Below, in pieces: positions 11,605 through 27,738 of a DNA stretch of 64,000 bases. Both the position numbers and the translations under genes were made by a program. How positions within the stretch are numbered: the stretch's first letter is position 1; each line of letters begins with the position of its first letter. Under the pieces are notes generated by a model. The model was not told the origin of the DNA. It did not search any database and saw only the letters and a program-made list of their open reading frames with translations. This stretch comes from Brevundimonas sp. (GTDB lineage Bacteria > Pseudomonadota > Alphaproteobacteria > Caulobacterales > Caulobacteraceae): contig NZ_JACESB010000001.1 in the NCBI RefSeq assembly GCF_013912005.1, positions 1 to 64,000 on the forward strand, in the 5' to 3' direction.

Positions 11605-11820
11605 TCAGAACGCCTGCTCATAGGCGCGCATCCGGGCGTCACGCCGGGCCTCGGCCAGGCCGCGGCGCGCCGCCTCGCACTCCGTTTGCGTCCGGCCGGC
11701 GTCGCAGGCGGCCACGACCCGGGCCGCCGCGTCAGGGTCGGCCGCGAATTCCCCGGCCGTTCGGTCCGGCGCGCCGCAGCCGGCGAGCGCGAAGGCGGCG
11801 AGCAGGGCGATCCGCGTCAC
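11605..11820 (-). CDS. Small lipoprotein, entry-exclusion (EexN/TrbK)-like
   Basis: The 71-residue protein has a signal peptide and lipobox LAGC (Cys15). The mature part carries a pair of cysteines about 11 residues apart (VAACDAGRTQTECEAARRGL), as in EexN-type entry-exclusion lipoproteins. Such proteins sit next to virB5/trbJ and block redundant transfer between donors. Its C-terminus (RMRAYEQAF) closely resembles the end of the adjacent VirB5 (RMSVYERAFQ). Start and stop overlap or abut the neighbouring genes. Confidence 0.65.
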   Translation of the reverse strand: MTRIALLAAFALAGCGAPDRTAGEFAADPDAAARVVAACDAGRTQTECEAARRGLAEARRDARMRAYEQAF

Positions 11821-12545
11821 TGGAAGGCCCTCTCGTAGACGCTCATGCGCGCCGTGCGGGCGGCTTCGGCCCGTTCCCGGGCGCGTTGCTCCTCCAGCCG
11901 GGCCTCGGCCGCCTGGGTCAGGGCCAGACCTTGCAGCCGCACCTGTTCGTTCTGGATCAGAGCCTGTTCCGCCGCGAGCCGCGCCTCCAGATCCATCACC
12001 GCCCGGGCATTGGGCGCGGTGTCGAGGGCCGAGCGCAGCGTCTCCAGACCCTCAAGCCGCCGGTCGGCGGCTCCGGCCACCGCCTCGCCCACGGCGAGAT
12101 CGCGCGCCGTGCGGGCGCCGGCGCGTTCGAGGCTGTCCCGGTAATAGGCGTCGGCCGAGCTCAGATCGCCCGTCGGCGGCGTGTACAGCCGGGTGTCGCG
12201 ACGGATGGCGTTGGCGCGGTCAGCCAGGTCGCCGAGCGCGCCGAGGTCGCCGTTCGCCGCCGCCCGCATCGACCGCATATCGGGCAGGGGATTGCGCACG
12301 GTCGGCAGGCCGAGCTCGCCGGCCAGGGCGTTGACGTCGGACAGGTTGTTGAGACTGTCGAACAGCCGCTGGCCCTGTTCGACCTGGGTCTGCAGCGCTT
12401 TCAACTGATCCAGGGTGGTGCGTGCCTCCTCGATCATCTGGGCGAGGGCCCTCGGGTCGTGGACGATCTGCTGGGCCCGGGCGGCCGGAGCGCCAGCGAC
12501 AACGAGGGCGGCGACGGCCGCGGCGGACAGGATTCGGGCTCTCAC
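11817..12545 (-). CDS. virB5: VirB5/TrbJ-type minor pilus protein
   Basis: This 242-residue secreted protein has a signal peptide (MRARILSAAAVAALVVAGAP to ARAQ) and long coiled-coil helices (ARTTLDQLKALQTQVEQGQR near residue 45, LEEQRARERAEAARTARM near the C-terminus). VirB5 sits at the pilus tip and helps contact recipients. It lies directly after virB4 with a 4-base overlap. Confidence 0.85.
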   Translation of the reverse strand: MRARILSAAAVAALVVAGAPAARAQQIVHDPRALAQMIEEARTTLDQLKALQTQVEQGQRLFDSLNNLSDVNALAGELGLPTVRNPLPDMRSMRAAANGDLGALGDLADRANAIRRDTRLYTPPTGDLSSADAYYRDSLERAGARTARDLAVGEAVAGAADRRLEGLETLRSALDTAPNARAVMDLEARLAAEQALIQNEQVRLQGLALTQAAEARLEEQRARERAEAARTARMSVYERAFQ

Positions 12546-14893
12546 AGGAACCTCCTCTGGTTATGGAAGGGGGCGCGCCATTGCGCGTAGTCGTCGCCCG
12601 CCTCGGCGCGCAGACGGTCGAGCAAGGCGACGGTCTCGGTCCGGCCGGACAGGATGGCCAAGGCGTCGTCCATGCCGCGCAGGTCGAGTTCGACCACCAC
12701 GCTGTCGTGACCCTGTTTGACCAGGAAGCGGTGCGACTCCGGGGTCAGCACCTCGCGGACGAGCCGGAACTCCTCCTGGGTCAGGCCGAAACCGTCGACG
12801 TAGTCCCGGGCCTGGCCGTGGGCGTTGGGCAGGAAGATCTTGGTCGCGCACTGCTCGAGGATGGCGTGGGCGATGGGCGAGCGGAGCGCGTCGGCCGGCG
12901 ACTGGGTGCCGAACACCATCAGGGCGTTCTGCTTGCGCCAGGTCTTGAGACCGTCCCGGGCGAGCTCGGTGAAGGCCGGATCGTCCAGCACCTTCCAGAA
13001 CTCGTCGATGTCGAGCACGAGGCGTCGGCCATCGACGCGCTCGGCGATGCGATGAAACAGATACAACATCGCGGGCGTGCGAACCTCGTCATGGTCTAGC
13101 ATCTGGGTGATGTCGAAGCCGGCGAACCGCGCCTCCAGGCTCAGGGCGTCCTCCTCATTGTCGAGTACCCAGCCCAGCGGACCGCTGCGCTGCCAACGCT
13201 CCAGGCGCGCGCCCACGCCCCCGGCGTCGCCCTGGCCGAGCAGGCTGCGCAGGGCGGCGATGGATCGACGCTCGCGAGGCAGGGCCTCCAGCGCCGCGAC
13301 GCCCTGATCGATGGCGCGCGCCTCCGGAACCGTCAGGGTTTCGTGGGGGCGGTCGACCAGGGCGCGGACGAGGCGAACCAGGAAGGCGCGGTTCGCCGGC
13401 GTCGGGTCGAGCGCCTTGAATGGGGCGAAGCCCGTCGGCTCGCCGTTGCGCAGGGCGAGATAGGTCCCGCCGCAGGCGCGCACGAAGATCTCGGCCCCCC
13501 GGTCCTTGTCGATGAACAGCTGCTGGGCGCCGAAGCGTTCGAGCTGGGCCAGCATGAAGTTCTGGACGACCGTCTTGCCCGATCCGGACGGCCCGCAGAT
13601 GAAGGTGTGGCCCAGATCGCCGACGTGGAAGTTGAACCAGAACGGCGAGCCGGCCGTGGTGCGCAGCACCGCGACCGCCTCGCCCCAGTGGGCGCCGCGC
13701 GCCTTGCCGACCGGATGGGCGTGGAACGGCGCCAGGGCCGCGAAATTGCGCGAGGTGATGGCGGCCGGCCGGGTGCGGCGGGCGAAGGCGCCGGGGAACT
13801 GGGACCAGAAGGCCGCCTCCAGTCCGAGATCCTCCCGGGCCACGACCAGACCGGAATCGGCGAGAATGGCGCGCGCCTTGGATAAATGGTCCGCCAGCGC
13901 CCCCGGCGTATCGCCGTGCACGAGGATCGAAGCCTGGTGCTCGCCCATCACGAAGCGGTTGCTGACCAGGTCGTCGAGCGCGTCCGACAGGCCGGTGATC
14001 TGAGAGGCCGCGCGGTCGCGCGCGGAGACCATCTGGTTCTGCTTGCGCTCCATCACCGTCCGCGCGGCGGCCTTGGACAGGAACGCGAAGGACTGGCTCG
14101 CCACGAAGCCGAAGCGGACGCTCAGCAGATCGTCCCACAGCCCCGGCCGGGTCGTCGCCGGATATTCCTTCACCGCCAGGACGCCGGCGTAGCGAGCGTC
14201 GGCGACGTCCCGCAGCTCTAGGGTCTCGCGACCGAAGATGACGCGCACCGTATGAACGGCCGCGCCGAGGTGGCCGAAGACGATCGGAACCGCCGAGCGC
14301 CGACCTGTCAGAACCAGTCGCATCACCTCCATCGACTCGGAGAACCAGAGACCGTCACGTTCATACAGGCCGAGCCGGCGCGGCGCGTAGCGGTCGAGAT
14401 ACTGGATCAGGTCCCGGCCCGCTTCCTCGATCCGCTGGAGGTGGGCGGTCTCGACCTCGGCGTCCGCCCGCCGCGCCGCCTTCAGGCGACGCGCCAGGGC
14501 CGCGGCGCGATCGCCCGCCTCGCGGCCGGGGTGGAGGACGAGGGTGACGAAGAGCTCATTGATCCAGAGCCGACGCTCCGCGACCCGATCGTCGTAGAGC
14601 GCGCCCAGTTCGCCGGCGAAGTCCGAGCGGAAGCCGGCGGACCGCTCGAGTTCGGCCGGGCGGCGCACCACATGGTGCCAGATCGCCAGGCGATCGTCGG
14701 CCAGATTGCGCCAGGCCTGGTTCAGCTTGATATGCCAGTCGTTCAGATCGCGCGCATCCGCGGTCTCGAAACTGGCCCCGTCGATCTGGAAAACCATCAT
14801 CAGGGCGCCGTTGTCGAGCGCCACCACGGCGTCGGAGACGTGGCGCGCGTAGGGCAGATGACGCCTTGCGTCGGCCTCGCGCCGCAGGCGCAT
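12542..14893 (-). CDS. virB4: VirB4/TrbE-type secretion ATPase
   Basis: The 783-residue ATPase of the channel has Walker A GPSGSGKTVV near residue 430 and Walker B RLVLDIDEFWKVL near 628. The N-terminal CagE/VirB4 domain includes RFGFVASQSFAFLSK. It energises pilus biogenesis at the inner membrane. I chose ATG 14893, the first start at which the conserved N-terminus (HLPYARHVSDAVVALDNGAL) is complete and which lies 16 bases after virB3; GTG 14902 is an alternative. Confidence 0.92.
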   Translation of the reverse strand: MRLRREADARRHLPYARHVSDAVVALDNGALMMVFQIDGASFETADARDLNDWHIKLNQAWRNLADDRLAIWHHVVRRPAELERSAGFRSDFAGELGALYDDRVAERRLWINELFVTLVLHPGREAGDRAAALARRLKAARRADAEVETAHLQRIEEAGRDLIQYLDRYAPRRLGLYERDGLWFSESMEVMRLVLTGRRSAVPIVFGHLGAAVHTVRVIFGRETLELRDVADARYAGVLAVKEYPATTRPGLWDDLLSVRFGFVASQSFAFLSKAAARTVMERKQNQMVSARDRAASQITGLSDALDDLVSNRFVMGEHQASILVHGDTPGALADHLSKARAILADSGLVVAREDLGLEAAFWSQFPGAFARRTRPAAITSRNFAALAPFHAHPVGKARGAHWGEAVAVLRTTAGSPFWFNFHVGDLGHTFICGPSGSGKTVVQNFMLAQLERFGAQQLFIDKDRGAEIFVRACGGTYLALRNGEPTGFAPFKALDPTPANRAFLVRLVRALVDRPHETLTVPEARAIDQGVAALEALPRERRSIAALRSLLGQGDAGGVGARLERWQRSGPLGWVLDNEEDALSLEARFAGFDITQMLDHDEVRTPAMLYLFHRIAERVDGRRLVLDIDEFWKVLDDPAFTELARDGLKTWRKQNALMVFGTQSPADALRSPIAHAILEQCATKIFLPNAHGQARDYVDGFGLTQEEFRLVREVLTPESHRFLVKQGHDSVVVELDLRGMDDALAILSGRTETVALLDRLRAEAGDDYAQWRAPFHNQRRFL

Positions 14894-14909
14894 CGCGCTG
14901 ACGCCGCCC

Positions 14910-15245
14910 TCAGCCACGGGCCAGCTCCGTCGGACGGTAGCGCCGGATGAGAGGCAACGGTGTCGCCGAACTGCCGCCCCAGAGGGCGGCGTTGCGCGAC
15001 CGGCCCTTGGTGTCGACATAGACGAACAGCAGCCGGAAGGCGTTGTGATCCGCCCGACAGATCGCCCGGAACACCAGGTGCAGGGCCGGCGCGACGAGGA
15101 GATAGAGCAGGCTGCCGCCGACCAGGAAGACGACGCCCGAAAGGATGACATTCACGCCCATGGCCTCCATGGGGACGCCCAGGATCATGGCCGGTCGGGT
15201 GCAGGCCAGGAACAAAGGGTCTTCGGTCAGGCGCTCTTCAGCCAT
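14910..15245 (-). CDS. virB3: VirB3-type inner-membrane protein
   Basis: The 111-residue protein shows the VirB3/TrbD pattern: short N-terminus with DPLFLACTRPAMILGVP, then a membrane hairpin (GVNVILSGVVFLVGGSLLYL), then a cytoplasmic tail with DHNAFRLLFVYVDTKGRSRN. It partners VirB4 at the inner membrane. Confidence 0.87.
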   Translation of the reverse strand: MAEERLTEDPLFLACTRPAMILGVPMEAMGVNVILSGVVFLVGGSLLYLLVAPALHLVFRAICRADHNAFRLLFVYVDTKGRSRNAALWGGSSATPLPLIRRYRPTELARG

Positions 15246-15420
15246 GCGGGCCTCCGGCGGACAGGCGCGACAGGGCCAGGCCGATGGCGACGCCGGAGGC
15301 GAGGCCGGCGAAGATCTGGGCGAAGCGCTTGGGCGAGATCAGCTTCAGGCCGAGCATCAGGACCAGCGCCAGGAGCACCGAGGCCGATCCGATCACGACC
15401 CAGGAGAGGGCGTCGTCCAT
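15238..15420 (-). CDS. Small two-helix membrane protein between virB2 and virB3
   Basis: This 60-residue protein has two membrane helices (about residues 6-26, SWVVIGSASVLLALVLMLGL, and 36-52, IFAGLASGVAIGLALS) joined by a basic loop (ISPKRF). It overlaps virB2 by ATGA and virB3 by 8 bases, so it is surely co-expressed. It is not one of the standard eleven VirB proteins, and I do not recognise it. It could be a second pilin-like subunit or an assembly factor. Confidence 0.65.
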   Translation of the reverse strand: MDDALSWVVIGSASVLLALVLMLGLKLISPKRFAQIFAGLASGVAIGLALSRLSAGGPHG

Positions 15421-15719
15421 CAGGCGCCGCCCGTGATCAGATTGACGATCTCGGCCGCGCCGAAGACGACCACGATGCCGAGCACCACGATCGCCGCGCG
15501 CCGCAGGTCGAACAGGCCGAACATCCAGAGAATGCCGACGACCACGACCGCCAGGACGGCGAGCAGCCGCGCGGTGTTGCCGGTCAGCATGTCGACGACG
15601 TTCTGAAGCAGGCCTTCGACGTTGGCGGAGGCGAAGGCCGGCTGGACCAGAATCAGGCTGGTCGCCAGGGCGATGGCGCCGACGGCGCCGAACCGGCGAG
15701 AGGAGATGGAGGCGGTCAT
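15420..15719 (-). CDS. virB2: VirB2/TrbC-type pilin
   Basis: This 99-residue pilin precursor has a long basic signal peptide ending near PAFASA, then two hydrophobic helices (LLAVLAVVVVGILWMFGLFD and AAIVVLGIVVVFGAAEIVNL) separated by a short positively charged loop, as in VirB2. It is the major subunit of the conjugative pilus. Confidence 0.88.
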   Translation of the reverse strand: MTASISSRRFGAVGAIALATSLILVQPAFASANVEGLLQNVVDMLTGNTARLLAVLAVVVVGILWMFGLFDLRRAAIVVLGIVVVFGAAEIVNLITGGA

Positions 15720-16342
15720 TCAGAACTCCCGGTCTGGGTGGCGGTGAAGGTCAGGACCAGGCTGGTCCGGGCGCGCGCGAAGACGTCCCAGTCCGCCGCT
15801 GGCGCGGTCTGGACCGGGTCGGGCAGCGGCGCGGTCGCAAGGGGCTGGACGGGGCGCAAGGCCTGAACGCCGAGGCGGACGGCGGCCGCCTCGACCCGGG
15901 CGACATAGCCGTTGCGGAAGCCGCGCTCGGGATGACAGGTGTTGTAGCGGGAGAGGGCGATCCTCAACGTCGTCTGCGGATCGACGCCCTCGGCCGGCCG
16001 ATAGCCCGCGCGAAGCACCTGACCGGCGGCGGCGAGGTTTCGGCAGGGATCGAAGGCCGCCTCGACCGACAGGCCGAGCCAGTCGAGGTTGTCGCTGTTG
16101 ATCTGGGCGACGCCGAGATCGAGGTTCGCGCCTCGGGCCAGAAGGTCGCGCGCCACGCGCGCCGCCTCGGCGGCGTCGCGTGGCGTCCGCGCCGGCCGGG
16201 GGCCGCGGTTGACCCCGATGGCGTTCGGATTGAAGCGGCTTTCCGCATAGGCGACGGCCGCCAGGGTTTCGGGGGCCACATGCGGGGCGCAGGCTTGGGA
16301 CAGGCTGAGGATGAGGGCGAGGTCCAGCAAGGGAGGCTCCAT
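15716..16342 (-). CDS. virB1: VirB1-type lytic transglycosylase
   Basis: The 208-residue SLT-family enzyme has the catalytic glutamate in VAYAESRFNPNAIGVN near residue 35, the GVAQINSDNLDWLGL block near 90 and LRIALSRYNTCHPERGFRNG near 140. VirB1 opens peptidoglycan for channel assembly. The N-terminus is hydrophobic but only weakly signal-like. I chose ATG 16342; the frame upstream is Arg/Pro-rich noise. It is the first gene of the secretion operon. Confidence 0.87.
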   Translation of the reverse strand: MEPPLLDLALILSLSQACAPHVAPETLAAVAYAESRFNPNAIGVNRGPRPARTPRDAAEAARVARDLLARGANLDLGVAQINSDNLDWLGLSVEAAFDPCRNLAAAGQVLRAGYRPAEGVDPQTTLRIALSRYNTCHPERGFRNGYVARVEAAAVRLGVQALRPVQPLATAPLPDPVQTAPAADWDVFARARTSLVLTFTATQTGSSE

Positions 16343-16406
16343 CGTGAGCCCCGAGCAAAGCCGATGAGTCCCGGCCGCCGCGACCCGCGACCCTCCCGCC
16401 GGGCGT

Positions 16407-16667
16407 TTACGGTAGGAAGGTCCGGGGTTCAGGCGGCCGCTGGGCGGCCGCGAGCCGCGCCACGGCCTGGACGCGCGTCCGCACCCCGAGCGCACGGCAA
16501 GCGCCCATCAGATGTTCATCGACCGTGCGGGCGGACAGGCCGACCCTTTCGCCGATCGCCGCCGATGTCAGACCCTCGGCGGCCAGGGCAAGGCACTGCT
16601 TCTGCCGATCGGAAAGCCGGTCGAGCGTGGAGGAATCTGAAAGAGGGTCGGCGGGTAGCGGGCGCAT
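16407..16667 (-). CDS. LuxR-type HTH regulator (DNA-binding domain only)
   Basis: The 86-residue protein is essentially one LuxR/GerE helix-turn-helix: LSDRQKQCLALAAEGLTSAA then IGERVGLSARTVDEHLMGAC. It has no ligand-binding or receiver domain. It lies upstream of virB1 in the same direction and probably controls the transfer operon. A close relative at 28219-28461 shares RTVDxxL, AC and VRTR at the same spacing. Confidence 0.8.
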   Translation of the reverse strand: MRPLPADPLSDSSTLDRLSDRQKQCLALAAEGLTSAAIGERVGLSARTVDEHLMGACRALGVRTRVQAVARLAAAQRPPEPRTFLP

Positions 16668-17227: not shown

Positions 17228-17483
17228 GACGTCGCTCTAACTCCGTTTCCGAGCGCCGCGACTCGCGCGCACCGCACCCCTACTGGTTGAAAAATGAAGC
17301 AACCGTGCATCAAATGAAAGGTGGGAAACAAACGGGTCTATAAACCTTGTGTATTTGCGCAAAATATCTGCGGGTCGCACGCGAAATCTTTGCGGAAGTC
17401 GCCGATTACATGGTCGCATTCTCATCGCAACCCGAACTCGGCGTGGGTCGCGGCTTGAGCGCCCTCGCTGGGGGTTGGTCGTG
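17228..17483. promoter_or_regulatory. Divergent promoter region between XRE regulator and GntR gene
   Basis: This 256-base gap is clearly AT-richer than its surroundings, especially 17281-17400 (GTTGAAAAATGAAG, GGTCTATAAACC, GCAAAATATC). It must hold the promoters of the transfer regulators to the left and the lasso regulator to the right. I cannot assign -35/-10 boxes with confidence. Confidence 0.45.
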
Positions 17484-18095
17484 ATGCGATCGCGAGACCC
17501 CTATAACGACGCCCTGACCGCCTTGGCGGCGTTCGCCGGATCAGGCCGCTTCGGCTGGGGAGAGCCGTTGGTCGCCACCGCCTTGGCCGCCGAACTGGAG
17601 CTGTCCCAGACGCCCGTGCGCGAGGCCCTGGCCCGGCTCGCCGGCGAAGGTCTGATCGAACATCGCCCCGGGCGTGGCTACTACGCCCCCAGTCCCAGCG
17701 CCGACGACATCGTTGATCTCTACGAAATCCACCGGCGGCTGGTGCATTTGGCGATCGACCTTCTTGACGCCGCCGGAACGACTGTGGCGCTCCAGAGCGT
17801 CGGCGAGAGGAGCGAGGAGCGCTTCTACGCCGCCCTGGTCCGGTCGCCGGGGCGGGCGGTCTTGGCGCAAACCCATTGGCGCCTGACGCTGCGGCTTCGA
17901 CCCATTCGGATCGTCTCGGCCGAATTGGCGCCGCCGGACCTGGCCTGGATCGTCGGTGTCGAACGCCACGTCGCGGACGGCGCGCTCGTCGCGTTGCGGC
18001 GCGAGGTCGATCTGCATCATCGAGAGAGATCGGCGCTCGCCACCGCCGTCGTGGCAGTCATGCGACAATCTGTCGAAAGTATAGGACAGATATAG
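17484..18095 (+). CDS. GntR-family regulator of the lasso cluster
   Basis: The 203-residue protein has an N-terminal GntR winged helix (LAAELELSQTPVREALARLA then GEGLIEHRPGRGYY at about residues 30-72) and a short helical effector domain starting ADDIVDLYEIHRRLVHLAID. GntR genes are a known companion of isopeptidase-type lasso clusters in Caulobacterales and sphingomonads. It lies 71 bases before the precursor gene on the same strand. I chose ATG 17484 (GTG 17481 is adjacent); the longer frame reads through the AT-rich promoter region. Confidence 0.82.
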   Translation: MRSRDPYNDALTALAAFAGSGRFGWGEPLVATALAAELELSQTPVREALARLAGEGLIEHRPGRGYYAPSPSADDIVDLYEIHRRLVHLAIDLLDAAGTTVALQSVGERSEERFYAALVRSPGRAVLAQTHWRLTLRLRPIRIVSAELAPPDLAWIVGVERHVADGALVALRREVDLHHRERSALATAVVAVMRQSVESIGQI

Positions 18096-18149: not shown

Positions 18150-18166
18150 TTCAAGGAGGCTACGAC

Positions 18167-18484
18167 ATGAAGACCAATCCCCTTCCGGGCCTGATCGGGC
18201 TCGGCTGCGCCAGCGCACTGACCCGCGCCGGCGGCGGCGTCGAAAAGATGGAGCTGATCCCGCTCTATTTCTACGACGACGCGTCCACGACCCAGATCGT
18301 CGGGCTCGGTTCCGCGGTGGAGCAGACCCGCGCCGACGGCCCGGGGCACAATCGGGAACTCAACCCGATCTACACCTACGTCGATCCCTCGGTCGCCCGC
18401 ATCGGCGGGGCCGCGGAGCAGACGCGGGCGGACCAGCCCAGCGGCAATCGCGAGCTGATCCCGGTCGAGCGTTGGACCGCCTGA
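18167..18484 (+). CDS. Lasso peptide precursor with three apparent cores
   Basis: This 105-residue precursor starts 7 bases after AAGGAGG. Residues 1-20 end in GLIGLGCASALTR, close to Caulobacterales lasso leaders (astexin-type ...LGKASAETR) with Thr at -2. Three cores can then be read: 21-38 AGGGVEKMELIPLYFYDD, 56-74 ADGPGHNRELNPIYTYVDP and 88-105 ADQPSGNRELIPVERWTA. Each begins with Ala after Thr-Arg, has Glu at core position 9 (a 9-residue macrolactam ring) and continues Leu-x-Pro with an aromatic or bulky tail. The spacers repeat the leader end (IVGLGSAVEQTR, ARIGGAAEQTR). Ala-initiated cores are known from caulonodins. The B and C enzymes follow directly. Core boundaries at the C-terminal side are inferred; the first two cores would need cleavage there. 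Confidence 0.85.
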   Translation: MKTNPLPGLIGLGCASALTRAGGGVEKMELIPLYFYDDASTTQIVGLGSAVEQTRADGPGHNRELNPIYTYVDPSVARIGGAAEQTRADQPSGNRELIPVERWTA

Positions 18485-18534
18485 GCGCGACGGCTCCGAC
18501 GGGGGGCGACGGCGGCGACGCCGCCGCCCCTGCC

Positions 18535-19164
18535 GTGCGCCTGTATTTCGCGCCGGACGTTCACCACGCCTGCGTCGGTGGTGACGCCGTCCTGCTCGAC
18601 GTGCGCGGCGACGGTTATCATTGCCTGCCGGACGGCGCCGCCCTGTGCCGGCGGCTCGCGGGAGGCGGTCTCGTCCGGATGAACGGCCCCGTCTCGGCCC
18701 TGATCGCGGCGGGGTTGATCGGAGCGGAGCCTTCGCCGAAGCCCCGGGTTCCGCCGGCTCGCCCGGTGCGTTCCGTGATCCACGCCGGAGGGCGTCTGGA
18801 CCTGATGCGGGACCTGATCCCGGGGCTCTGCGCGATGCACGAGGTGCGGGCCGCCCGGCGCGGGGCCGGCCTGTCGCCTTATGTCAGTCTGGGCGGCGCC
18901 GAGCCTCGTGACGACCCTATGGCCGCGATCGAGGCCGGTCGGCGGTTCTGGACCCTGATGGCCTATTTGCCGATCGAGGGGGAATGCCTCGTCCGGTCGG
19001 CGCTGCTGGTCCGTTTTCTCCGGCGTCAGGGGCTTCGGGCCGACTGGGTGTTCGGCGTGCGCCTGTGTCCGTTCACCGCCCATTGCTGGGTGCAGGTCGG
19101 CGAGGTCTGTCTCAACGATGATGTGGAGCGGCTCGTGGCCTACACGCCGATCATGGTGCGATGA
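18535..19164 (+). CDS. Lasso B protein: fused RRE and leader peptidase
   Basis: The protein has about 209 residues. The N-terminal 80 form the precursor-recognition (RRE) part, with VRLYFAPDVHHACVGGDAVL and LDVRGDGYHCLPDG. The C-terminal part is the transglutaminase-like cysteine protease: catalytic Cys in GECLVRSALLVRFLRRQG (near residue 150), His in PFTAHCWVQVG (near 182) and Asp in VCLNDDVE (near 193). It cleaves after the Thr-Arg site and hands the core to C. The fused form is usual in Proteobacteria (McjB, 208 residues). Start is uncertain: GTG 18535 gives the family length, while TTG 18472 or CTG 18481 would overlap the precursor stop. A longer frame back to 18097 is only a shadow of the precursor gene. 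Its end overlaps the C gene by ATGA. Confidence 0.9.
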   Translation: MRLYFAPDVHHACVGGDAVLLDVRGDGYHCLPDGAALCRRLAGGGLVRMNGPVSALIAAGLIGAEPSPKPRVPPARPVRSVIHAGGRLDLMRDLIPGLCAMHEVRAARRGAGLSPYVSLGGAEPRDDPMAAIEAGRRFWTLMAYLPIEGECLVRSALLVRFLRRQGLRADWVFGVRLCPFTAHCWVQVGEVCLNDDVERLVAYTPIMVR

Positions 19165-20900
19165 GCGGCGACGCCGGCTATCTCCTCGTCGCCGACGCCG
19201 CGGACGCCCGCGATCCCGCCGTCGAGGCGGCCCTGGCGGCGCTACTGCGGAGCGGCTGGACCCTGCGGCTCGACGGCTTCGGTCTGAGGATTCTGACCGG
19301 ACCGCAATTCCCATGGCCCGTCGCGCAGGTTCATCGCGCCCATGCCCTGATCGGGGAATGGCGCGGGGAGGGCGCGCATCCTTCCGCGATCGCAGGCCGC
19401 TTCCCCGAAGGACGCCCGCTCGGCGCGGGCCTCATGAGCGAAGGCTGGGGCGCCTATCTGATGGTCTGGCGAGATCGCGACGGCCACCTAAACCTGGTGC
19501 GGGATCCGACCGGAGCGGTGGATGTGGTGTGGTGGCGGCGAGGTCCCGTCACCTTGGTGACCGACTGTCCTCCGCCGGCGCTCGACGCCGTCTTGCCGGA
19601 CACGCTCGCGATCGACTGGCCACAACTGGGCGCCCTTCTGGCGACGCCTTCGCTTCTGACCGACGGATTGCCCCTCCAAGGTTTGACGCCGGTCGGCGCC
19701 GGTTGCTGGAGCCGGCCGGACCAAGACCTTCCCGACGAACCCCTGTGGCGGCCGGCCGACTTCGTCCGTCGGGGCGCCGACGACGCCCCGGACGCTCTCG
19801 TGCGGGTCGTCGATCGCACCATCGACCGCACCATGCGCTCGCGTCGCCGGGTGGTCTCCGAACTCTCCGGGGGACTGGACTCGGCCATCGTGGCGGGAAG
19901 CCTGAGGGCGACGGGGCACGCCGAGCGCGCGGTCTTCATCAACTACTATGGCGACGACGCCGAAGGCGACGAGCGTCGTTACGCGGAGGCGGCCGCGGCG
20001 CTGAGCGGCGTTCCGCTCGAGACCGTTCGCAAGCCGGTCGAGGCGATCTCCGACGCGGACTTCACCACCCTGGCCTCCGGACTCCGTCCCGCCCTCCAAG
20101 GGGTGGACCCGGCCTATGATCGGCACGCCGCGGGCCGACTGGCGGCGCTGGGCGCCGACGGCCTGTTGACGGGACAGGGCGGCGACAGCGTCTTCTTCCA
20201 GGCCCCGGATCCCCTCGTCGCCGCCGACCGGTTCCGCCGCCAGGGCTTGCGCGCCCTCAATCCGGCCTATCTGGCGGCGGTGGGCCGCTGGACCCGCCAC
20301 TCCGCCTGGACCGTCGGCCGACTGGCGGTGCGCGGCCGGACGCAGACCGGATCGGGGCCGCGTCACCGGTGGCTCGACGACGCGGCCGAGCTTACGCCCG
20401 CCAAGCGGGGGCAGCTGGAGCGGTTCGTGAACTGTCAGCTGTTCTGGACGGACTGTCTGAGGGCGCGCCAGGCCCCGCTGCTCAATCCCTTCCTCAGTCA
20501 GCCGGTCGTCGAACACTGCCTCGGCGTGCCGTCCGACCGGCTGACCCTGGGCGAACGGGACCGGGGCCTGGCCCGCCTGGCCTTCTCGGAGCGCCTGCCG
20601 CCCTTGATCGCCGAACGGCGGGACAAGGGCGATCTGAGCCACTTCTACGGCCAGGTCGTACGGGACAGCGCGCCGGCGCTCGCCGCCTTCCTCCTGGAGG
20701 GACGACTAGCGGCCCAGGGCGTCCTCGACCGGGCGACGCTCGAGGTTGATCTCGACCCGGCCCGCCTGCTCTGGCGCGAGGGCGCCAACGCCCCGTTGCT
20801 GGCCGCCGTCCTGGAGGCCTGGGCGCGCCACTGGGAGGGTCGGATCGCGCGTCGCCGGACCGAGGTAGCGCGCCAGCCAGTCGAGGATGTGGGCGTGTAG
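19161..20900 (+). CDS. Lasso C protein: asparagine-synthetase-like macrolactam synthetase
   Basis: The 579-residue homologue of McjC has an N-terminal Ntn-like fold lacking the glutaminase Cys, then an AMP-forming PP-loop SELSGGLDSAIVAGSLRATG near residue 236 and a second ATP-site block GLLTGQGGDSVFF near 335. It adenylates the Glu9 side chain of a core and closes the ring with the core N-terminus. Its last 65 codons (from 20706) overlap the convergent isopeptidase gene, and the tail after ARHWEGRIARRR is probably non-conserved. No ABC exporter gene follows, as is usual in isopeptidase-type clusters. Confidence 0.92.
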   Translation: MSGDAGYLLVADAADARDPAVEAALAALLRSGWTLRLDGFGLRILTGPQFPWPVAQVHRAHALIGEWRGEGAHPSAIAGRFPEGRPLGAGLMSEGWGAYLMVWRDRDGHLNLVRDPTGAVDVVWWRRGPVTLVTDCPPPALDAVLPDTLAIDWPQLGALLATPSLLTDGLPLQGLTPVGAGCWSRPDQDLPDEPLWRPADFVRRGADDAPDALVRVVDRTIDRTMRSRRRVVSELSGGLDSAIVAGSLRATGHAERAVFINYYGDDAEGDERRYAEAAAALSGVPLETVRKPVEAISDADFTTLASGLRPALQGVDPAYDRHAAGRLAALGADGLLTGQGGDSVFFQAPDPLVAADRFRRQGLRALNPAYLAAVGRWTRHSAWTVGRLAVRGRTQTGSGPRHRWLDDAAELTPAKRGQLERFVNCQLFWTDCLRARQAPLLNPFLSQPVVEHCLGVPSDRLTLGERDRGLARLAFSERLPPLIAERRDKGDLSHFYGQVVRDSAPALAAFLLEGRLAAQGVLDRATLEVDLDPARLLWREGANAPLLAAVLEAWARHWEGRIARRRTEVARQPVEDVGV

Positions 20901-23216
20901 GTCGCGCAGGTTGCCGGGGCTGGCGAGCACATGGCCCTCGCCATAGTAGGTCAGCAGAGCCGCGTCCCGGTTTAGTCGGTAGAGGACGCCGAACAACTTG
21001 CCCATGCGCGGCCGCTCCAGATCGCTTTCGATCAGCAGGGCCGGCGCCCGCAGGTCCGCCGCCGAGAACAGCGGGCTCATCTCGACATAGCGGGCGGCGT
21101 CCGCCGGGAAGGCGCCGATCGCCGCCTGGCCTGTCTCCGCCCAGCCGGACAGCTGGCCGATGGGCACGCCCTCGTCGGGTGCGGAGCGGAAGAAGGGCGG
21201 CAGTTCGAAGGCGCTGATCAGGTCGGCGTAGCCGTTGGAGGCGATCACCGCCGCGACCCGGTCGCTGTGGGGCGCCGCGTTGAGCACATTGAAGGCCCCG
21301 TAGCTGTGACCGAGCAGGGCGTAGCGGTCGGCCCGGACCCGGCCAGTGGCGCCGGCCGCATCGGCGATGGCGTCGATCTGCGCGGCAAGGGCCGCGCCGG
21401 ACCAGCGCCCATCCGGCGGGTTCGGCAGGCTGACATAGAGAACCGCATAGCCGCCCCCGGCGATGACCGCCGGATTGTTCTGGAGCATGGCGGAGCGGCG
21501 CGTGAGCGGTGACGGCGGACGCGACGAGACGCGGCCGGGGTAGACCTCGACGACCAGCGGCGCCTTGACCCCTTCCGGCAATCCCGGCGGCAGGAGCAGC
21601 CAGCTCTTCAGCGCCTGGCCGGCAGGACCGGTGTGCGCAACTTCGATGATTTCGCCCCAGTCGAAGGTCGCGCGATCGAGGTTGATCTCCGCCAGGGTCA
21701 GGCCGGCGTCGGCGCGATGGAGCCGGAAACGGGTGGATCCGTCGGCGGAGTCCTGACGGGCGACGACGAAGGCGCCGTCAGGACTGGAGGCGACGCGGGT
21801 TTCATCCGGTTCCAGCGGCGAGACGCAGACCGGCGCCGCGTCGATCGCGGCCTTGGCGCAGCCGTCGCTGATCAGGGTGCGGCCGGGGGTCGCCTCGCGC
21901 ACATAGGCGGCGCGGAAGCCGGCGTCGCGAGCCTCGCCGAGGTCGCTGATCCGGCCGGCGACGTCCGGGCCTCCGTTCAGGGACAGAAGCCGGTCGCCGC
22001 GCTCGATACGGGTCTCGCCGTTCCAGTCGACGAGCCGATCGCCCGTCTGGGCCGGGATCGGCGCGAGACCGCCCGGCACGCGCCATTGGGCGACGCCGGC
22101 GTCATCCAGGACCCGGAGCACGGGCGTGTCGCCGAGCCAGCCGCCCAGCGCCACCGGTTCGTCCCACGGGCTTCGCTCCGTCGCCGGCTTGTCCGCGAAC
22201 CTGGAGACCAAGCCGTCCAGCCCGATCGCGACATAGGCGCCGGACCGCTCGAAGCCGGCTTGGCCCACGTGGCGCGCGAAGGCGAGAAGCCGACGGCTGT
22301 CGGGGCTCCACGCCATCAGATAGGGGCCGTAATCGAGAGCGGGGTCGATCCGGGTTTCGGCGCCGGTGTCGATGTCGATCAGGCGCAGGGCGCGTCGGCG
22401 GATCGGGTCGCCGACCAGGACCGGGCGATCGGGATCGGGCTGCAGATCCTCGCGGTCCTCCAGCACGGCGATACGGGCGCCGTCCGGCGACAGGGCGAGA
22501 TCGAAGATCGCACCCGCGGCGAGCGGCGTCTGCGCGCCGCTACGCACATCCAGGCGGAGGAGCGACAACGGTGGGCGATGTTCGCGGGTGTCGCGGGCCG
22601 AGCCGCTCGGAATGAAGGTGCCGCCGACGGATCGGCCGGACGCTGTCGCCGCCCAGAGCGCCGCGATACGGTCCTGGGCCTGGAAGCCGGTGCGGGCGAT
22701 CTCGGGCAGCTGTCCGCCCGGCTGCACGACGACGAGCAGTTCGTCGACGGTTCGCCAGAGCGCCGTCAGCCCGAGCCGCGGGTCTTCCGGCGCGAGCGCG
22801 GTCCAACGGACCGCGCCGGTCTCGAGCGACAGGACGCCCAGCCGCCAGCTGTCCGGCGTCAGCTCGTAGACGATCAGCCGGCGACCGTCGGGCGAGAACC
22901 GTCCAGCCGTATAGCCGGCGGAATGGTCCGGGGTCTCCAGGGTGCGGACGACCTCGCCAGAGCGCGCGTCCACGATCTGGACGGCGCTGAGGAGGCGGTC
23001 GGTGTCCCTGGACAGCTTGTAGGAGGGCGCGCGGTCGTAGCGCGCCCGGCGTTCCAGCGCGATCCAGCGGCCGTCCGGACTGACGCGCGCATCGCCGAGA
23101 CTCTCCTGACGCAGCAGGGCGTCGATGGTGAAAGGGCCGGAGGACTGGGCAAGCGCGGGACAAGCGAAGGCGAGCCCGGCCGCAAGGCCGAGCATCAGAA
23201 CTGTGCGGTGCATCAC
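20706..23216 (-). CDS. Lasso peptide isopeptidase (S9C prolyl-oligopeptidase family)
   Basis: The 836-residue periplasmic protein has a signal peptide (MLGLAAGLAFACPALAQ), an N-terminal seven-bladed propeller (repeated DGRW/DGRR/DSRR turns) and a C-terminal alpha/beta hydrolase with nucleophile GHSYGAF near residue 637, acid ESDLERP near 728 and base GEGHVL near 760. AtxE-type enzymes hydrolyse the isopeptide bond and linearise imported lassos. It follows the TonB receptor with overlapping stop and start (GTG 23216, ATG 23213). The fold should end near LDWLARYLGP, so the last roughly 55 residues, antisense to the C gene, are an unusual extension. Confidence 0.88.
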   Translation of the reverse strand: MMHRTVLMLGLAAGLAFACPALAQSSGPFTIDALLRQESLGDARVSPDGRWIALERRARYDRAPSYKLSRDTDRLLSAVQIVDARSGEVVRTLETPDHSAGYTAGRFSPDGRRLIVYELTPDSWRLGVLSLETGAVRWTALAPEDPRLGLTALWRTVDELLVVVQPGGQLPEIARTGFQAQDRIAALWAATASGRSVGGTFIPSGSARDTREHRPPLSLLRLDVRSGAQTPLAAGAIFDLALSPDGARIAVLEDREDLQPDPDRPVLVGDPIRRRALRLIDIDTGAETRIDPALDYGPYLMAWSPDSRRLLAFARHVGQAGFERSGAYVAIGLDGLVSRFADKPATERSPWDEPVALGGWLGDTPVLRVLDDAGVAQWRVPGGLAPIPAQTGDRLVDWNGETRIERGDRLLSLNGGPDVAGRISDLGEARDAGFRAAYVREATPGRTLISDGCAKAAIDAAPVCVSPLEPDETRVASSPDGAFVVARQDSADGSTRFRLHRADAGLTLAEINLDRATFDWGEIIEVAHTGPAGQALKSWLLLPPGLPEGVKAPLVVEVYPGRVSSRPPSPLTRRSAMLQNNPAVIAGGGYAVLYVSLPNPPDGRWSGAALAAQIDAIADAAGATGRVRADRYALLGHSYGAFNVLNAAPHSDRVAAVIASNGYADLISAFELPPFFRSAPDEGVPIGQLSGWAETGQAAIGAFPADAARYVEMSPLFSAADLRAPALLIESDLERPRMGKLFGVLYRLNRDAALLTYYGEGHVLASPGNLRDLHAHILDWLARYLGPATRDPTLPVARPGLQDGGQQRGVGALAPEQAGRVEINLERRPVEDALGR

Positions 23217-26170
23217 CAGCTCCGGGTCAGCTGGAGCGAGACGTAGCGGCCGATGACGTCCGAGTTCGCCGCGTCATAGGCCACGCCTTCGGGCGCGTCG
23301 TAGAAGGGCGGATCACGGTCAAAGAGGTTCTGGATCGTCATGGCGACGGCCGTCCCGGCGAACGGACCCGTCTCCGGCGCATAGCGCACCTGAAGATCGG
23401 CCGTGGTCCAGGAGCCGATGCGACGCCCGGAGGTGTCGGCGTAGTCGGAGACATGATCCACCGCTCCGCCGAGGGTGAGCGGGCCCCTCGTCCAGCTGAG
23501 ATGGGTGCGACCCCGCAGGCCCACGGGATAGTTCGGTCGATCCAGCTGGGAGACCACGGGGGAGGTGGGCGTGGCCCGGGCGTCGAAGCGCTCCAGCCAG
23601 GTCAGGCTGCTGGTCAGATCGAAGGCGTCAGGGCCGACCGCGAAGGCGTAGGCGACCGTGAGGTCGGCGCCCTGGACCTGGACGCTGGCGGTGTTGACGT
23701 AGCGGGCGTCGACGATGGCGCCGTAATCGGTGGCCGGGAACAGGTCACGCAGGTTGGTGGTCGGCAAATCGAGGATCGCCTGCATGTCGGCGCGATCCTG
23801 GGCGTTGTTGGCCGGATCGATGATCCGAACGAACGGGCTCAGGGTGGTGTCGCTCAGCGCGGTGAGGATGTTCTCCAGAGCCGGTTGGCCGATCCGGTTC
23901 TCGAAATCCGTGCGGAAGGCGTTGACGCTGATCCGGAGACCCTGAACCGAGGCGGGCTCGAAATCGCCCCCAACCGTCCAGGTGTCGGCGGTTTCGGGCT
24001 CCAGATCCGGATTGCCGCCATACAGGATCATGGTCAGGATCTGGTTGGGTCCGCGGGGCAGGATCGAGGGACTGGCCGTCGCCGCGTCATTCACCTCGCG
24101 CAGGGCCGGCGCCCGGAAGGACCGGCCGTAGTTGGCCCGCAGGCGCGCGCCCGCCATGGGTTCCCAGACCAGACCGACCTTGGGGCTCGTCGTCTGACCG
24201 ACATCGCCATAGTCCTCGAACCGGGCCGCCAGCGACAGTTCGAGCCGTTCCAGTCCCGGACGGCTGTTGCCGGCCCCGAACAGGGGAATCCGCGCCTCCG
24301 CATAGACCGCCGCCACGTCGCGCTCGCTGGCGTTCAGCGCGCCCAGGACGGGCGCGATGCCGGAGGTGAAACTGTCCACCTTGCGGTCGAAATTCTCGCG
24401 CCGGAGCGCCGCCCCGACCGCGAGTTTCAACGGGCCGCCGGGCAGCTCCAACAGGTCGCCGTCCAGCATCACGTTCGCCGTGGTGATGCGGCTCTCGCTC
24501 CACAGATGGGTCCAGCCGCCCGTGATGAAGTCCAGCGCGGCCTGCGGATTGACGTTCCCCGCCCCGAACGGATTGAGAAAGCCGTCCCTGGCGGCGCTGT
24601 AGCCCGTGGCCGGATTGTCCGCCAAGGCGCCCAGCGCCTCGCGCAGATAGGTCGATTGCAGCGTGCCCGACGACCCGAAGCCGGCTTCTTCCGCGCCGTA
24701 GGCGAGATAGCTCGACAACCGCCACGAGCCGCCCAGGTCGAGATCGGCGCCGATCGTCGCGGACAGGGTCTCGACCTCCCCGGATTGCACCGGGTTGGGC
24801 GTCTGACCGGCGAAGGAATAGGCGATCAGGTGCGAATTCGCGCCCGTCGGGGATTCGAAGAAGGGGTTATTGCGGTTGACGGTCAGCAGCGTGGCGATCG
24901 GCGACGATCGGGTCTCATAGTCGCGCCGGGCCCAGCGCGCGTCGCCGGACAGGGTCAGCCGGCCGCCGAGATCCTGCCGTCCCGCCAGATAGGCGATATG
25001 GCGGGTCTGCCGCGGAAAGACGTTCATGCCGAACCGCTGATTGGTGCGGTTCTCCTGCCCCGGCAGGAAATCGCCCGGAGCCAGGTTGGTCCCGTCCTGA
25101 CCGCCCGGGATGGCGAAGGCGGAGACATAGGCGCCCGACGCCGGGTCGATCACCATGATGTTGCCGGGGTTGCTGTAGTTCAGTCGGCGATCCGATCCGC
25201 CGAAGCGGCGCAGATCGGCGTCACCCGCGCGATCGCGTTCGGCCGCGGGCAGGGCTTCGCGGTCCTGGTATTCGTAGACGCCCATAAGACTGCCGCTGCC
25301 CCATCGCCGCCCGATCGTCTGGGCGAACAGGACATCGGAGAAGGCGCCGTCGGCGGCCGTGCCGTAGCGCGCTCTGGTCTCGGCGCCGTCGTAGTCGTCA
25401 CGCAGGACCACATTGATGACCCCGCCCACGGCGTCGGCGCCGTAGAGAGCCGAGGCTCCGTCGAGCAGGACGTCGATCCGCTCAACGGCGGCCGTCGGAA
25501 TCGACGAGACGTCGGCGAAATCGCCCTTGGAGCCGGTCCCGGCGATCCGCCGGCCGTTGACCAACACCAGGGTCGCGTCGCTGCCGAGGCCGCGCAGGTT
25601 CACCCCATTGGAGTAGTTGGCGTTGGTGCCGCTGCGGTCGCCGCCGTTGCTGAGGGTGGCGTCATTGGCGGTGCCTGCGAAATTCTGCGGCAGCGCCGCC
25701 AGGGCTTGAGCGACGGTCGCGTGGCCGTCGCGATCAATCTGGTCGCGGCTGACGACCACCACCGGCGAGGGGCCGTCGAGCACCCCGCGCAGCAGGCTGC
25801 CCGTGACGACGACCTCGTCCAGCTGGACGGCTTCCAGCTGTTCGGCCTCGGCGCGTTGCGACGGGTCGATGAGGACGAACACATTGGGCCGGCTCCGTCG
25901 ATAGGTCAGGCCGGTGTCGCGCAGGAGCAGCGCCAGCGCCGTCTCGACGGAATAGTCGCCCGAAAGTGACGCCGAGGCCCGGTCCGCCACCAGGGCGCTC
26001 GGATAGAGGATCTGCTGACCGCTCTGGCGAGCGAAGGCGGGGAGGGTGCGCGCCAGCGGCCCTGCCGGGATGTCGAAGCGACGCGCGGACTCGGCCTGCT
26101 GGGCGCAGACCGGCGTCGCCGACGCCATCAGAAGCGCCGCGAGCGCCGTTGAAGTGAAGCCCTGTCTCAT
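23213..26170 (-). CDS. TonB-dependent receptor with STN signalling domain, lasso uptake
   Basis: The roughly 985-residue outer-membrane receptor has a signal peptide (MRQGFTSTALAALLMASATP to VCAQ), an STN domain (RFDIPAGPLARTLPAFARQS to YRRSRPNVFVL), a plug with NLRGLGSDATLVLVNGRRIA and a beta-barrel ending in an aromatic residue (LQLTRSW). STN domains signal to a FecR-type anti-sigma factor, and fecR and fecI lie just upstream. With the isopeptidase this forms the import-and-degrade branch of the cluster. I chose ATG 26170; nine residues upstream are possible but spoil the signal peptide. Confidence 0.9.
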   Translation of the reverse strand: MRQGFTSTALAALLMASATPVCAQQAESARRFDIPAGPLARTLPAFARQSGQQILYPSALVADRASASLSGDYSVETALALLLRDTGLTYRRSRPNVFVLIDPSQRAEAEQLEAVQLDEVVVTGSLLRGVLDGPSPVVVVSRDQIDRDGHATVAQALAALPQNFAGTANDATLSNGGDRSGTNANYSNGVNLRGLGSDATLVLVNGRRIAGTGSKGDFADVSSIPTAAVERIDVLLDGASALYGADAVGGVINVVLRDDYDGAETRARYGTAADGAFSDVLFAQTIGRRWGSGSLMGVYEYQDREALPAAERDRAGDADLRRFGGSDRRLNYSNPGNIMVIDPASGAYVSAFAIPGGQDGTNLAPGDFLPGQENRTNQRFGMNVFPRQTRHIAYLAGRQDLGGRLTLSGDARWARRDYETRSSPIATLLTVNRNNPFFESPTGANSHLIAYSFAGQTPNPVQSGEVETLSATIGADLDLGGSWRLSSYLAYGAEEAGFGSSGTLQSTYLREALGALADNPATGYSAARDGFLNPFGAGNVNPQAALDFITGGWTHLWSESRITTANVMLDGDLLELPGGPLKLAVGAALRRENFDRKVDSFTSGIAPVLGALNASERDVAAVYAEARIPLFGAGNSRPGLERLELSLAARFEDYGDVGQTTSPKVGLVWEPMAGARLRANYGRSFRAPALREVNDAATASPSILPRGPNQILTMILYGGNPDLEPETADTWTVGGDFEPASVQGLRISVNAFRTDFENRIGQPALENILTALSDTTLSPFVRIIDPANNAQDRADMQAILDLPTTNLRDLFPATDYGAIVDARYVNTASVQVQGADLTVAYAFAVGPDAFDLTSSLTWLERFDARATPTSPVVSQLDRPNYPVGLRGRTHLSWTRGPLTLGGAVDHVSDYADTSGRRIGSWTTADLQVRYAPETGPFAGTAVAMTIQNLFDRDPPFYDAPEGVAYDAANSDVIGRYVSLQLTRSW

Positions 26171-26234
26171 GTGTCTCCCCCGGTTTCTTATCCGCATTGA
26201 TGCGGGACCGGGAGGAGACGACCGGTCGCGGGCC

Positions 26235-27242
26235 TTACCCTAAGTCCGGGGTCAGATTATTTTTCGATGCGCCCGAAAGCACCACATGACCGTCCTCGGC
26301 CCGTTCGGCGGTGAGCGGATAGAGGTCGCGCAGCGCCGCCACGAAACCCTCGACGTCGCCGGCGTCGAACACCCCGCTCACCCGGATGGAGGAAATGTCC
26401 CCGGCGCGCAGTTCGATCGGATGACGGGTGTAGCGGTTGACCTCAGCCACGGCGACGCCGATCGGCGTTTCGTGGAAGGTCAGTCGGCCCGCCGCCCAGC
26501 TGGTCGCCGCGGGTAGATCGGTCGTGACCACCCGGGGTCGGGGGACGGACGTCACCAGCTGCTGTCCCGGCTGCATCGACCAGCGCCGGTCCGCCTGTCG
26601 TCCCTCGCGCACATCGACCCGGCCCTCGACAAGCACCACGCGTGCGCCCGTCCCGAAGCGCCGGACGTCGAAGCTCGTGCCCAAGGCCGTAACCTCGGTG
26701 TCGCCGGCCTTGACGACGAACGGCCGGTCCGGGTCGCCCTCAACATCGAACCGGGCCTGGCCCGTGACGAGGGTGACCAGCCGGCGGCCCCCGGTCAGGC
26801 GAACGTCGATCCTGGAGTCCGTGTCGAGCGTGATCGTCGAGCCGTCGGCCAGTTGAACGACGCGGCGTTCGCCGACCTGGGTGAGATAGGGGGTCGGCTG
26901 CTGCGCTGACCACAACCACCAGCCCACGGACAGGGCCGCGATCGCGGCGCCGACGGCGCCGACGGGGGCGAGAACACCGAGCAGGCGGGGGCGGGCCCTG
27001 CGGCGGGAGGCGGCGCGGGTCCGGGCGTCCGCCGAAAGCGCGGCCATCTCGGGTTGGTCGGCCAGGGTGCGACTCGCGTCCCACATCGCCTGCATGCGGT
27101 CGAAACTTTCGGCGTTCTTGGGGTCCCGTCGCCAGGCGCTGAAGGCCTTCACGTCCGCCGTGGTGACCTTGCGTTGGTTGAGCCGCGCTAACCAGTCGGC
27201 GGTCTCCTTGCGTCTGATGTCGGCGTCAGCCTCGGTCGTCAT
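26235..27242 (-). CDS. FecR-type anti-sigma factor
   Basis: The protein has 335 residues: an N-terminal cytoplasmic DUF4880 segment (ETADWLARLNQRKVTTADVK, then FSAWRRDPKNAESFDRM), one membrane helix near residues 87-106 (VGAVGAAIAALSVGWWLW) and a periplasmic FecR domain (RRVVQLADGSTITLDTDSRI, GQARFDVEGDPDRPFVV). It would hold the adjacent sigma factor until the STN domain of the receptor reports bound ligand. It lies 10 bases after the sigma gene. ATG 27242 is chosen because upstream codons are Arg-rich noise. Confidence 0.9.
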   Translation of the reverse strand: MTTEADADIRRKETADWLARLNQRKVTTADVKAFSAWRRDPKNAESFDRMQAMWDASRTLADQPEMAALSADARTRAASRRRARPRLLGVLAPVGAVGAAIAALSVGWWLWSAQQPTPYLTQVGERRVVQLADGSTITLDTDSRIDVRLTGGRRLVTLVTGQARFDVEGDPDRPFVVKAGDTEVTALGTSFDVRRFGTGARVVLVEGRVDVREGRQADRRWSMQPGQQLVTSVPRPRVVTTDLPAATSWAAGRLTFHETPIGVAVAEVNRYTRHPIELRAGDISSIRVSGVFDAGDVEGFVAALRDLYPLTAERAEDGHVVLSGASKNNLTPDLG

Positions 27243-27252
27243 CAGTCTTCGC

Positions 27253-27738
27253 CTAAAGGTCCAGCCGCAGCGCGCAGTAGTCGAGCGCCTTGGCCATCCG
27301 CCACTCCACCGTCTTGACGCTGATCTCAAGCTCCTTGGCGATCTCGGGATACGTCATACCGTCAAAGCGGCTCAAGACGAAGACGTCGCGGTAGAGTTGC
27401 GGCATGGATCGTATGATCTGGGCGAGCAGAACCTGATCGAACTGGGGCGCGCCTTCGGATTCGGGGGATTGGAGGTCGGCGTCGCTTGGCCGACGGCGCC
27501 TATGTTTGGCGTCATCGCGCACCAGATTGAGGGCGACCCGGAGCAGGAAGGCGCGGGGATGGGCGATCCCGCCGTCGGCGAAGGGCGCGATGCGGATATA
27601 GGTTTCCTGCACGACGTCGGCCGCATCGTCCGGACCGATCCGAGCCCGGAGGCGACGGTTCAACCACGCAGCGTAGCGGCGGTACAGGCCGTCCAGGCCG
27701 CCGCCGACCTCCGCTTGCAATGGCTTCGCTTCGCTCAC
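27253..27738 (-). CDS. FecI-type ECF sigma factor
   Basis: The 161-residue protein has region 2 (LYRRYAAWLNRRLRARIGPD, VQETYIRI) and region 4 (MPQLYRDVFVLSRFDGMTYP then EIAKELEISVKTVEWRMAKA). With FecR and the STN receptor it forms a cell-surface signalling set that presumably activates receptor and isopeptidase when an external lasso binds. GTG 27738 is the preferred start; an ATG at 27810 adds 24 low-complexity residues. Confidence 0.88.
   Translation of the reverse strand: MSEAKPLQAEVGGGLDGLYRRYAAWLNRRLRARIGPDDAADVVQETYIRIAPFADGGIAHPRAFLLRVALNLVRDDAKHRRRRPSDADLQSPESEGAPQFDQVLLAQIIRSMPQLYRDVFVLSRFDGMTYPEIAKELEISVKTVEWRMAKALDYCALRLDL

Follow-up and report, generated by a model that had tools for sequence, protein, structure and literature searches.

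On the (+) strand of the window (i.e., the entire 64,000-nt stretch of Brevundimonas sp. DNA analyzed here), a short open reading frame (ORF), referred to as gene A, extends from position 18167 to position 18484 and encodes a protein of 105 residues followed by a stop codon. A Shine-Dalgarno-like AAGGAGG (18153-18159, + strand) is located 7 bases ahead of its ATG. Cutting the translation after every Thr-Arg yields four pieces of 20, 35, 32, and 18 residues (MKTNPLPGLIGLGCASALTR, AGGGVEKMELIPLYFYDDASTTQIVGLGSAVEQTR, ADGPGHNRELNPIYTYVDPSVARIGGAAEQTR, and ADQPSGNRELIPVERWTA, respectively), the last three of which begin with a putative lasso core. The original prediction had described three cores, each positioned behind Thr-Arg, starting with Ala, and carrying Glu9 followed by Leu-x-Pro, and the translation confirms this description, with Ala1, Glu9, Leu10, and Pro12 found in all three cores. 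In addition, core position 16 is aromatic throughout (Y, Y, and W, respectively). The combination that marks a lasso precursor, Thr at −2 and Asp/Glu at core positions 7-9, therefore occurs three times in this ORF, which, with more than one core per reading frame, also has the defining property of a multi-core RiPP. All three units share a single frame and a single Shine-Dalgarno sequence.

Further inspection of the precursor revealed that a leader is repeated ahead of each core (LIGLGCASALTR, IVGLGSAVEQTR, and VARIGGAAEQTR), with a hydrophobic residue at −12, L/I at −9, Gly at −8, Ala at −6, Thr at −2, and Arg at −1, while the placement of Ser varies from −5 to −7. Leaders 1 and 3 have Pro-14, which leader 2 lacks; the spacing of positions −14, −12, −8, and −2 agrees with the pattern common to lasso leaders. 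Specifically, sequence and unit alignment place leader 1 at residues 1-20 (18167-18226, with P-14, L-12, L-9, G-8, A-6, T-2, and R-1), followed by positions 1-16 of core 1 (AGGGVEKMELIPLYFY; 18227-18274), for which a ring between Ala1 and Glu9 and a plug at Tyr16 are predicted from the sequence and the column counts. The core 1 tail DDASTTQ and leader 2 (IVGLGSAVEQTR) occupy 18275-18331, with position −12 at 18296, which is also where the unit starts according to the profile described below. Positions 1-16 of core 2 (ADGPGHNRELNPIYTY; 18332-18379) have the same predicted ring and plug (Ala1-Glu9 and Tyr16), and the core 2 tail VDPS and leader 3 (VARIGGAAEQTR) cover 18380-18427, with position −12 and the profile unit start at 18392. 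Core 3 (ADQPSGNRELIPVERWTA; 18428-18481) consists of 18 residues, again with a predicted Ala1-Glu9 ring and with Trp16 as the predicted plug; all of these segments are on the (+) strand. The proposal of a tandem-core architecture thus stands as far as the three cores are concerned, but it had overlooked the leader repeats: whole precursors are fused, rather than three cores being placed behind one leader. Similarly, the tails LYFYDD and IYTYVDP given for cores 1 and 2 do not represent defined C-termini; the stop codon delimits core 3 alone.

A chance origin of the three units is ruled out by two lines of evidence. When the 105 residues were shuffled 200,000 times, three TR-x8-E units were obtained in none of the shuffles, and two or more were obtained in 89. 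Moreover, a profile derived solely from unfused-precursor loci (29 distinct units), which serves as an independent check, recovered exactly three domains in the ORF (domain E-values of 3.2e-5, 0.0074, and 0.0041; whole-ORF E-value of 4.7e-14), and among the 1,075 ORFs of the window it matched nothing beyond the precursor at E ≤ 0.01, the next best hit having an E-value of 0.2. By comparison, NF033522 (Benenodin family precursor) scored the protein at 15.8 bits, below its cut-off of 33. The possibility that units 2 and 3 are translated from starts of their own was also rejected, as the ORF contains no further in-frame Met after Met28; in two relatives (L084 and L085), a Met is present within leader 2 (SAMEQTR), and a start at this position would retain just a leader stub.

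Gene A is part of a cluster with the order GntR, A, B, C, isopeptidase-like protein, TonB receptor, FecR, and sigma factor, in which A lies on the same strand as GntR, B, and C. The GntR-like regulator is directly upstream of A (17484-18095, + strand, with ATG 17484 as the assumed start; PF00392, E-value of 6.4e-13 on ORF 17349-18095). The B protein (18472-19164, + strand; start uncertain, TTG 18472 or GTG 18535) carries a cysteine-protease (B2) domain in its C-terminal half, which matched PF13471 as well as NF033537 (E-value of 8.8e-20; 71.4 bits against a cut-off of 33), and NF033537 matched all 29 aligned B proteins. The protein contains GEC and AHCW motifs, whose Cys172 and His204 are shared without exception by the 29 aligned sequences. 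Its N-terminal part is presumed to be a leader-binding RRE; Pfam and NCBIfam gave no match to a PqqD-like RRE in this part of the 29 B proteins, and comparison of the window's B with solved structures returned nothing significant. The source genome has one B2 locus, the one adjoining gene A, which, together with the Thr-2, Ala1, Glu9, and aromatic residue 16 of each core, supports the earlier proposal that three tandem cores are served by one B/C pair.

The C protein (19161-20900, + strand) is an asparagine-synthetase-like macrolactam synthetase with SGGLDS at residue 236 (PF00733, E-value of 5e-22, above the cut-off), which matched the NCBIfam lasso cyclase model NF033535 weakly (35.4 bits against a cut-off of 525). 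On the opposite strand, an S9 peptidase resembling lasso isopeptidases (20706-23216, − strand) contains GHSYG (636) and GEGH (759) and matched PF00326 and NF033523 (the AtxE2 family; E-value of 2.1e-15), the latter with 56.6 bits against a cut-off of 400, and its best solved-structure match is an S9 peptidase (E-value of 2.8e-14). Judged by these profile scores, the protein is a relative of the AtxE2 family and not a certified member. Its ORF and that of C converge and share 195 bases at their 3' ends (20706-20900). The remaining genes, all on the (−) strand, encode a TonB-dependent outer-membrane receptor with an STN domain (23213-26197; PF00593, PF07715, and PF07660), a FecR-like anti-sigma factor (26235-27329; PF04773), and an ECF (FecI-like) sigma factor (27253-27810; PF08281 and PF04542). 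Profile matches thus reveal a GntR gene upstream and, following the isopeptidase gene downstream, genes for a TonB receptor and a sigma/anti-sigma pair, a layout described as nearly constant in isopeptidase lasso clusters (PMC9266682). The cluster is adjoined by type IV secretion genes (11817-16495, − strand), encoding a VirB5-like T4SS protein, a VirB4/TrbE-like protein, a TrbC/VirB2 pilin, and an SLT transglycosylase, and this neighboring region is possibly mobile or formerly mobile. Further along, a CopB copper-resistance protein (29661-30857, − strand) with many DPHAGH repeats in its N-terminal part adjoins a CopC-domain protein.

To place the precursor among its relatives, we used a unit profile (A1) built from 19 units, which gave hits in 42 of the 131 genomes searched within the genus (E ≤ 0.001) and in 26 of the 398 searched within the order (E ≤ 0.01). 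A total of 52 loci were collected, and 51, the window's included, were compared after one unit-like match without B or C nearby (L118) had been left out. Fused precursors were found in 22 of these loci (seven with three units and 15 with two), while 29 loci have separate or single genes. Within the genus, 21 of the 131 genomes contribute fused loci; the remaining fused locus is from a genome assigned to a different genus of the family. The two-unit class comprises 13 loci with a two-unit ORF and two in which such an ORF is accompanied by a separate unit; the unfused class comprises 25 loci with two separate genes, two with three, and two with a single gene. These counts leave out units scoring <14 bits as well as L118; they include near copies (the C proteins of L072, L084, L085, and L095 are 99-100% identical) and one locus scored as two-unit (L082) that shows one more separate unit by pattern on the same contig, seen as L136. 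The original prediction had proposed that homologues keeping only one unit would count against it, and the opposite was observed, with two or three whole units in each of the 22 fused loci. Because the same unit type occurs as a free-standing gene in the other 29 loci (two or three such genes in 27 and one in 2), a single unit suffices as a precursor.

Next, we analyzed which positions are conserved among the 67 distinct units (111 in total) of the 51 loci, noting that the units had been gathered by a profile of like units and that the counts accordingly favor the pattern, for which the unfused-unit profile provides the independent check. Thr-2 is present in 67 of 67 units, Arg-1 in 64, Ala1 in 63 (the others being two Ser and two Gly), Glu9 in 65, and Tyr, Trp, or Phe at position 16 in 64. 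The two units lacking Glu9 are the third genes of L112 and L113, where Glu was found at position 8 by eye. These separate genes also have Gly1 and an aromatic residue at 15, and they apparently encode an 8-residue ring next to two 9-residue rings of the same cluster. Across the 22 fused loci, Ala1, Glu9, and the aromatic residue 16 are retained irrespective of whether a unit is first, middle, or last; as read from these alignments, conservation is located on the lasso-critical positions of internal and last cores to the same extent. Spacing between units is modular: in fused precursors, position 16 and the following −12 are 4-8 residues apart, and the stretch beyond position 16 amounts to 2-8 residues in last units and 1-12, mostly 5-6, in separate genes. 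Position 16 is Tyr in the first core (Phe in two) and Trp in the last core in 42 of the 49 loci with two or more units, a pairing that is shared by fused and separate-gene loci.

A wider scan with the C alignment, from which the best 80 of 160 relatives were taken, gave 14 loci with two or more units per ORF, 52 with one unit per ORF, and 14 with none by pattern; inspection by eye showed that one of the 52 (L132) has a two-unit ORF, which brings the numbers to 15 fused and 51 single-unit relatives among these best 80. The C proteins of the fused relatives are 48-100% identical to that of the window, and their records are labelled Brevundimonas (including B. intermedia, B. alba, B. variabilis, and B. 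bullata), one Caulobacter sp. MAG, and one Caulobacteraceae. Single-unit relatives, which include Caulobacter, Phenylobacterium, Brevundimonas, and Sphingomonas, have C proteins up to 42% identical. Among the 14 relatives lacking a unit by pattern, four have <1 kb of upstream DNA and one (L143) contains a unit by eye. Within the stretches searched, no unit was found in two others, L133 (B. diminuta 470-4) and L134, whose C proteins share 51% and 53% identity, respectively, with that of the window; L133 has C, an isopeptidase-like gene, a TonB receptor, and FecR, and B was not found in the stretch searched. In B. albigilva (L106/L127; L127 is another of the 14), two cores are located in one frame and an ATG leader (LIGLGSA) in another (L127, 5049-5294 and 5077-5268), which could reflect either a defunct unit 1 or a faulty record (the genome, G605, is scored as only 89% complete). 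A tblastn search with the window precursor against 72,556 plasmid records returned no match, and NF033522 run over 385 genomes of the class gave one match, below the cut-off, in a 1,128-residue frame. Because NF033522 also missed the window precursor, this last scan does not test how common multi-unit precursors are.

A tree of 49 C proteins (two short ones, from L074 and L121, were left out) resolved the 21 fused loci it contains as one clade (support of 100/99) apart from the separate-gene loci, so that the fusion looks like one event. The three-unit loci fall in two places in the tree, and a single three-unit clade was ruled out, as holding them together was rejected by the AU test (p-AU of 2.6e-5). 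Yet the middle cores of the two three-unit lineages are mutual best matches (11-12 of 18 residues; score of 63-64 versus 50 for the next), although over whole units the lead is thin (for the L086 middle unit, 83 versus 82 for a first unit of L104). Internal cores resemble units that are first or middle elsewhere among the fused loci. Because the three-unit lineages are apart in the C tree while their middle cores match each other best, the third unit would be either old and lost several times, or it arose or moved between clusters more than once.

We also explored if the cores differ in constraint. Over core positions 1-16, pooled silent and amino acid changes per site were 0.307 and 0.093 for first, 0.204 and 0.029 for middle, and 0.334 and 0.092 for last cores, figures drawn from 13 locus pairs (three for the middle core) that overlap and have small single counts, and that include L082/L098, in which a fused last unit is set against a separate gene, and L097/L098, in which the "middle" is a second fused unit. 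The window precursor differs from its counterpart in L083, whose B and C are 81% and 85% identical to the window's, by 15 silent and 7 amino acid changes, only one of the 7 being within core positions 1-16; core 1 contributes one silent and no amino acid change and core 3 contributes neither. For the first unit of L075/L119, no silent change and one amino acid change were counted. In the pooled comparisons, amino acid changes were fewer than silent ones for every core class. At the level of these sequence comparisons, this shows constraint common to first, middle, and last cores, the exact strength of which is not given by the pooled figures.

Taken together, gene 18167-18484, which has three complete precursor units in one frame, probably encodes a lasso "polyprotein", and from its sequence we infer the following cutting, cyclization, trimming, and role. 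In lasso chemistry, B has to release the core amine before C can use it; therefore, each Thr-Arg must be cut. B would bind each leader motif (~12 residues), cut after the Thr-Arg before each core, and free the Ala1 amine, and C would then link Ala1 to the side chain of Glu9, closing a ring that encircles the threaded tail and is plugged by Tyr16, Tyr16, and Trp16 in the three cores, respectively. Core 3 would finish at its own C-terminus, while cores 1 and 2 would bear the next leader as a long tail (fragments of 35 and 32 residues), which other proteases may trim towards the plug. Three fixed products are thus predicted, and the term "combinatorial" used in the original prediction is too strong. 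Delivery of the precursor to B2 is attributed to B1 in PMC5067487. Long C-terminal extensions need not block lasso formation, by analogy with astexin-1, which still forms a lasso when fused C-terminally to GFP (PMC8498205), and with pandonodin, for which a tail of 18 residues is described (PMC13352647).

This reading has to be weighed against three others. That a natural C-terminus is present in core 3 only, and that the first leader of B. albigilva is out of frame with the cores, would both fit a precursor from which one core alone, most likely core 3, becomes a lasso, the other units being decoys, spacers, or decaying duplicates. We consider this improbable, since Ala1, Glu9, and the aromatic residue 16 are maintained in the first, middle, and last units of all 22 fused loci, pooled silent and amino acid changes are similar for first and last cores, and internal cores are like first and middle units elsewhere in the fused loci. 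Alternatively, B might cut the first Thr-Arg only, with C making one large lasso from the core 1 ring and an 85-residue tail in which the other units are included, and the tolerance of lasso enzymes for C-terminal extensions, as in the astexin-1 fusions (PMC8498205), is consistent with such a product. This scheme is highly unlikely, given that it leaves unexplained both the full L/I/V-12, G-8, A-6, T-2, and R-1 pattern in leaders 2 and 3 and the single-gene relatives of the same units. Finally, threading cannot be read from sequence alone, and the units might be cut out and joined without it (branched-cyclic peptides) or made into other products; we give this option equally little credence, because B, C, the isopeptidase-like protein, the TonB receptor, and the sigma/anti-sigma pair form the layout of lasso isopeptidase clusters, and isopeptidases are reported to require the threaded form (PMC9266682).

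If three lassos are indeed released from the polyprotein, their export would be followed by re-uptake through the TonB receptor and by opening through the isopeptidase, and the sigma/FecR pair would act as the sensor of lasso uptake. The presence of isopeptidase, TonB, and sigma genes suggests uptake and opening rather than killing; the function of isopeptidase-type clusters is described as unsettled, and a siderophore-like role has been suggested (PMC9266682 and PMC11006600). A tentative idea, which we regard as rather doubtful, is that fused precursors lock the members of a working lasso set into a fixed stoichiometry. If true, fusion would force a 1:1 output of Tyr16 and Trp16 lassos, or 2:1 in three-unit forms (Tyr, Tyr, Trp), the peptides may act together, e.g., on one receptor or cargo, and the internal segments would double as the tail of one lasso and the leader of the next.

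In the usual picture of lasso biosynthesis, a precursor consists of one leader and one core. A natural two- or three-unit precursor raises the questions of whether B and C can act on units within a chain, which unit they would process first, and what completes the internal tails; such a precursor would also be a ready template for several lassos from one gene. Since separate genes, two-unit fusions, and three-unit fusions occur in one family, the step to a polyprotein can be compared directly. We recognized no multi-core lasso precursor in the open-licence PMC literature, and an earlier report elsewhere is possible. Cyanobactin cores are each flanked by their own protease signals, and cyanobactins differ from the products predicted here in that they are head-to-tail macrocycles with heterocycles, made by unrelated enzymes. 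Like the window's gene, cyanobactin precursors hold several cores each, which was true of few RiPPs as of 2018: the list in PMC5934393 names cyanobactins, cyclotides, orbitides, ustiloxins, and phomopsins, plus microviridins, and lasso peptides are absent from that list. Several lassos per cluster are known, and they are described as coming from separate precursor peptides (PMC7549694). Among the closest systems are the isopeptidase-type proteobacterial clusters (astexin-2/-3, benenodin-1, caulosegnins I-III, and caulonodins), which have the same gene order as the window's cluster, but their cores are described as separate precursor peptides (PMC9266682), whereas in the window three units share one frame. 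In having several cores per polypeptide and one enzyme set, the precursor resembles AMdnA, a microviridin (graspetide) precursor with three cores, in which a leader guides the cores and ATP-grasp enzymes perform lactone chemistry (PMC5934393). Unlike AMdnA, the window precursor provides each core with its own leader motif, and each core would need a free N-terminus before cyclization.
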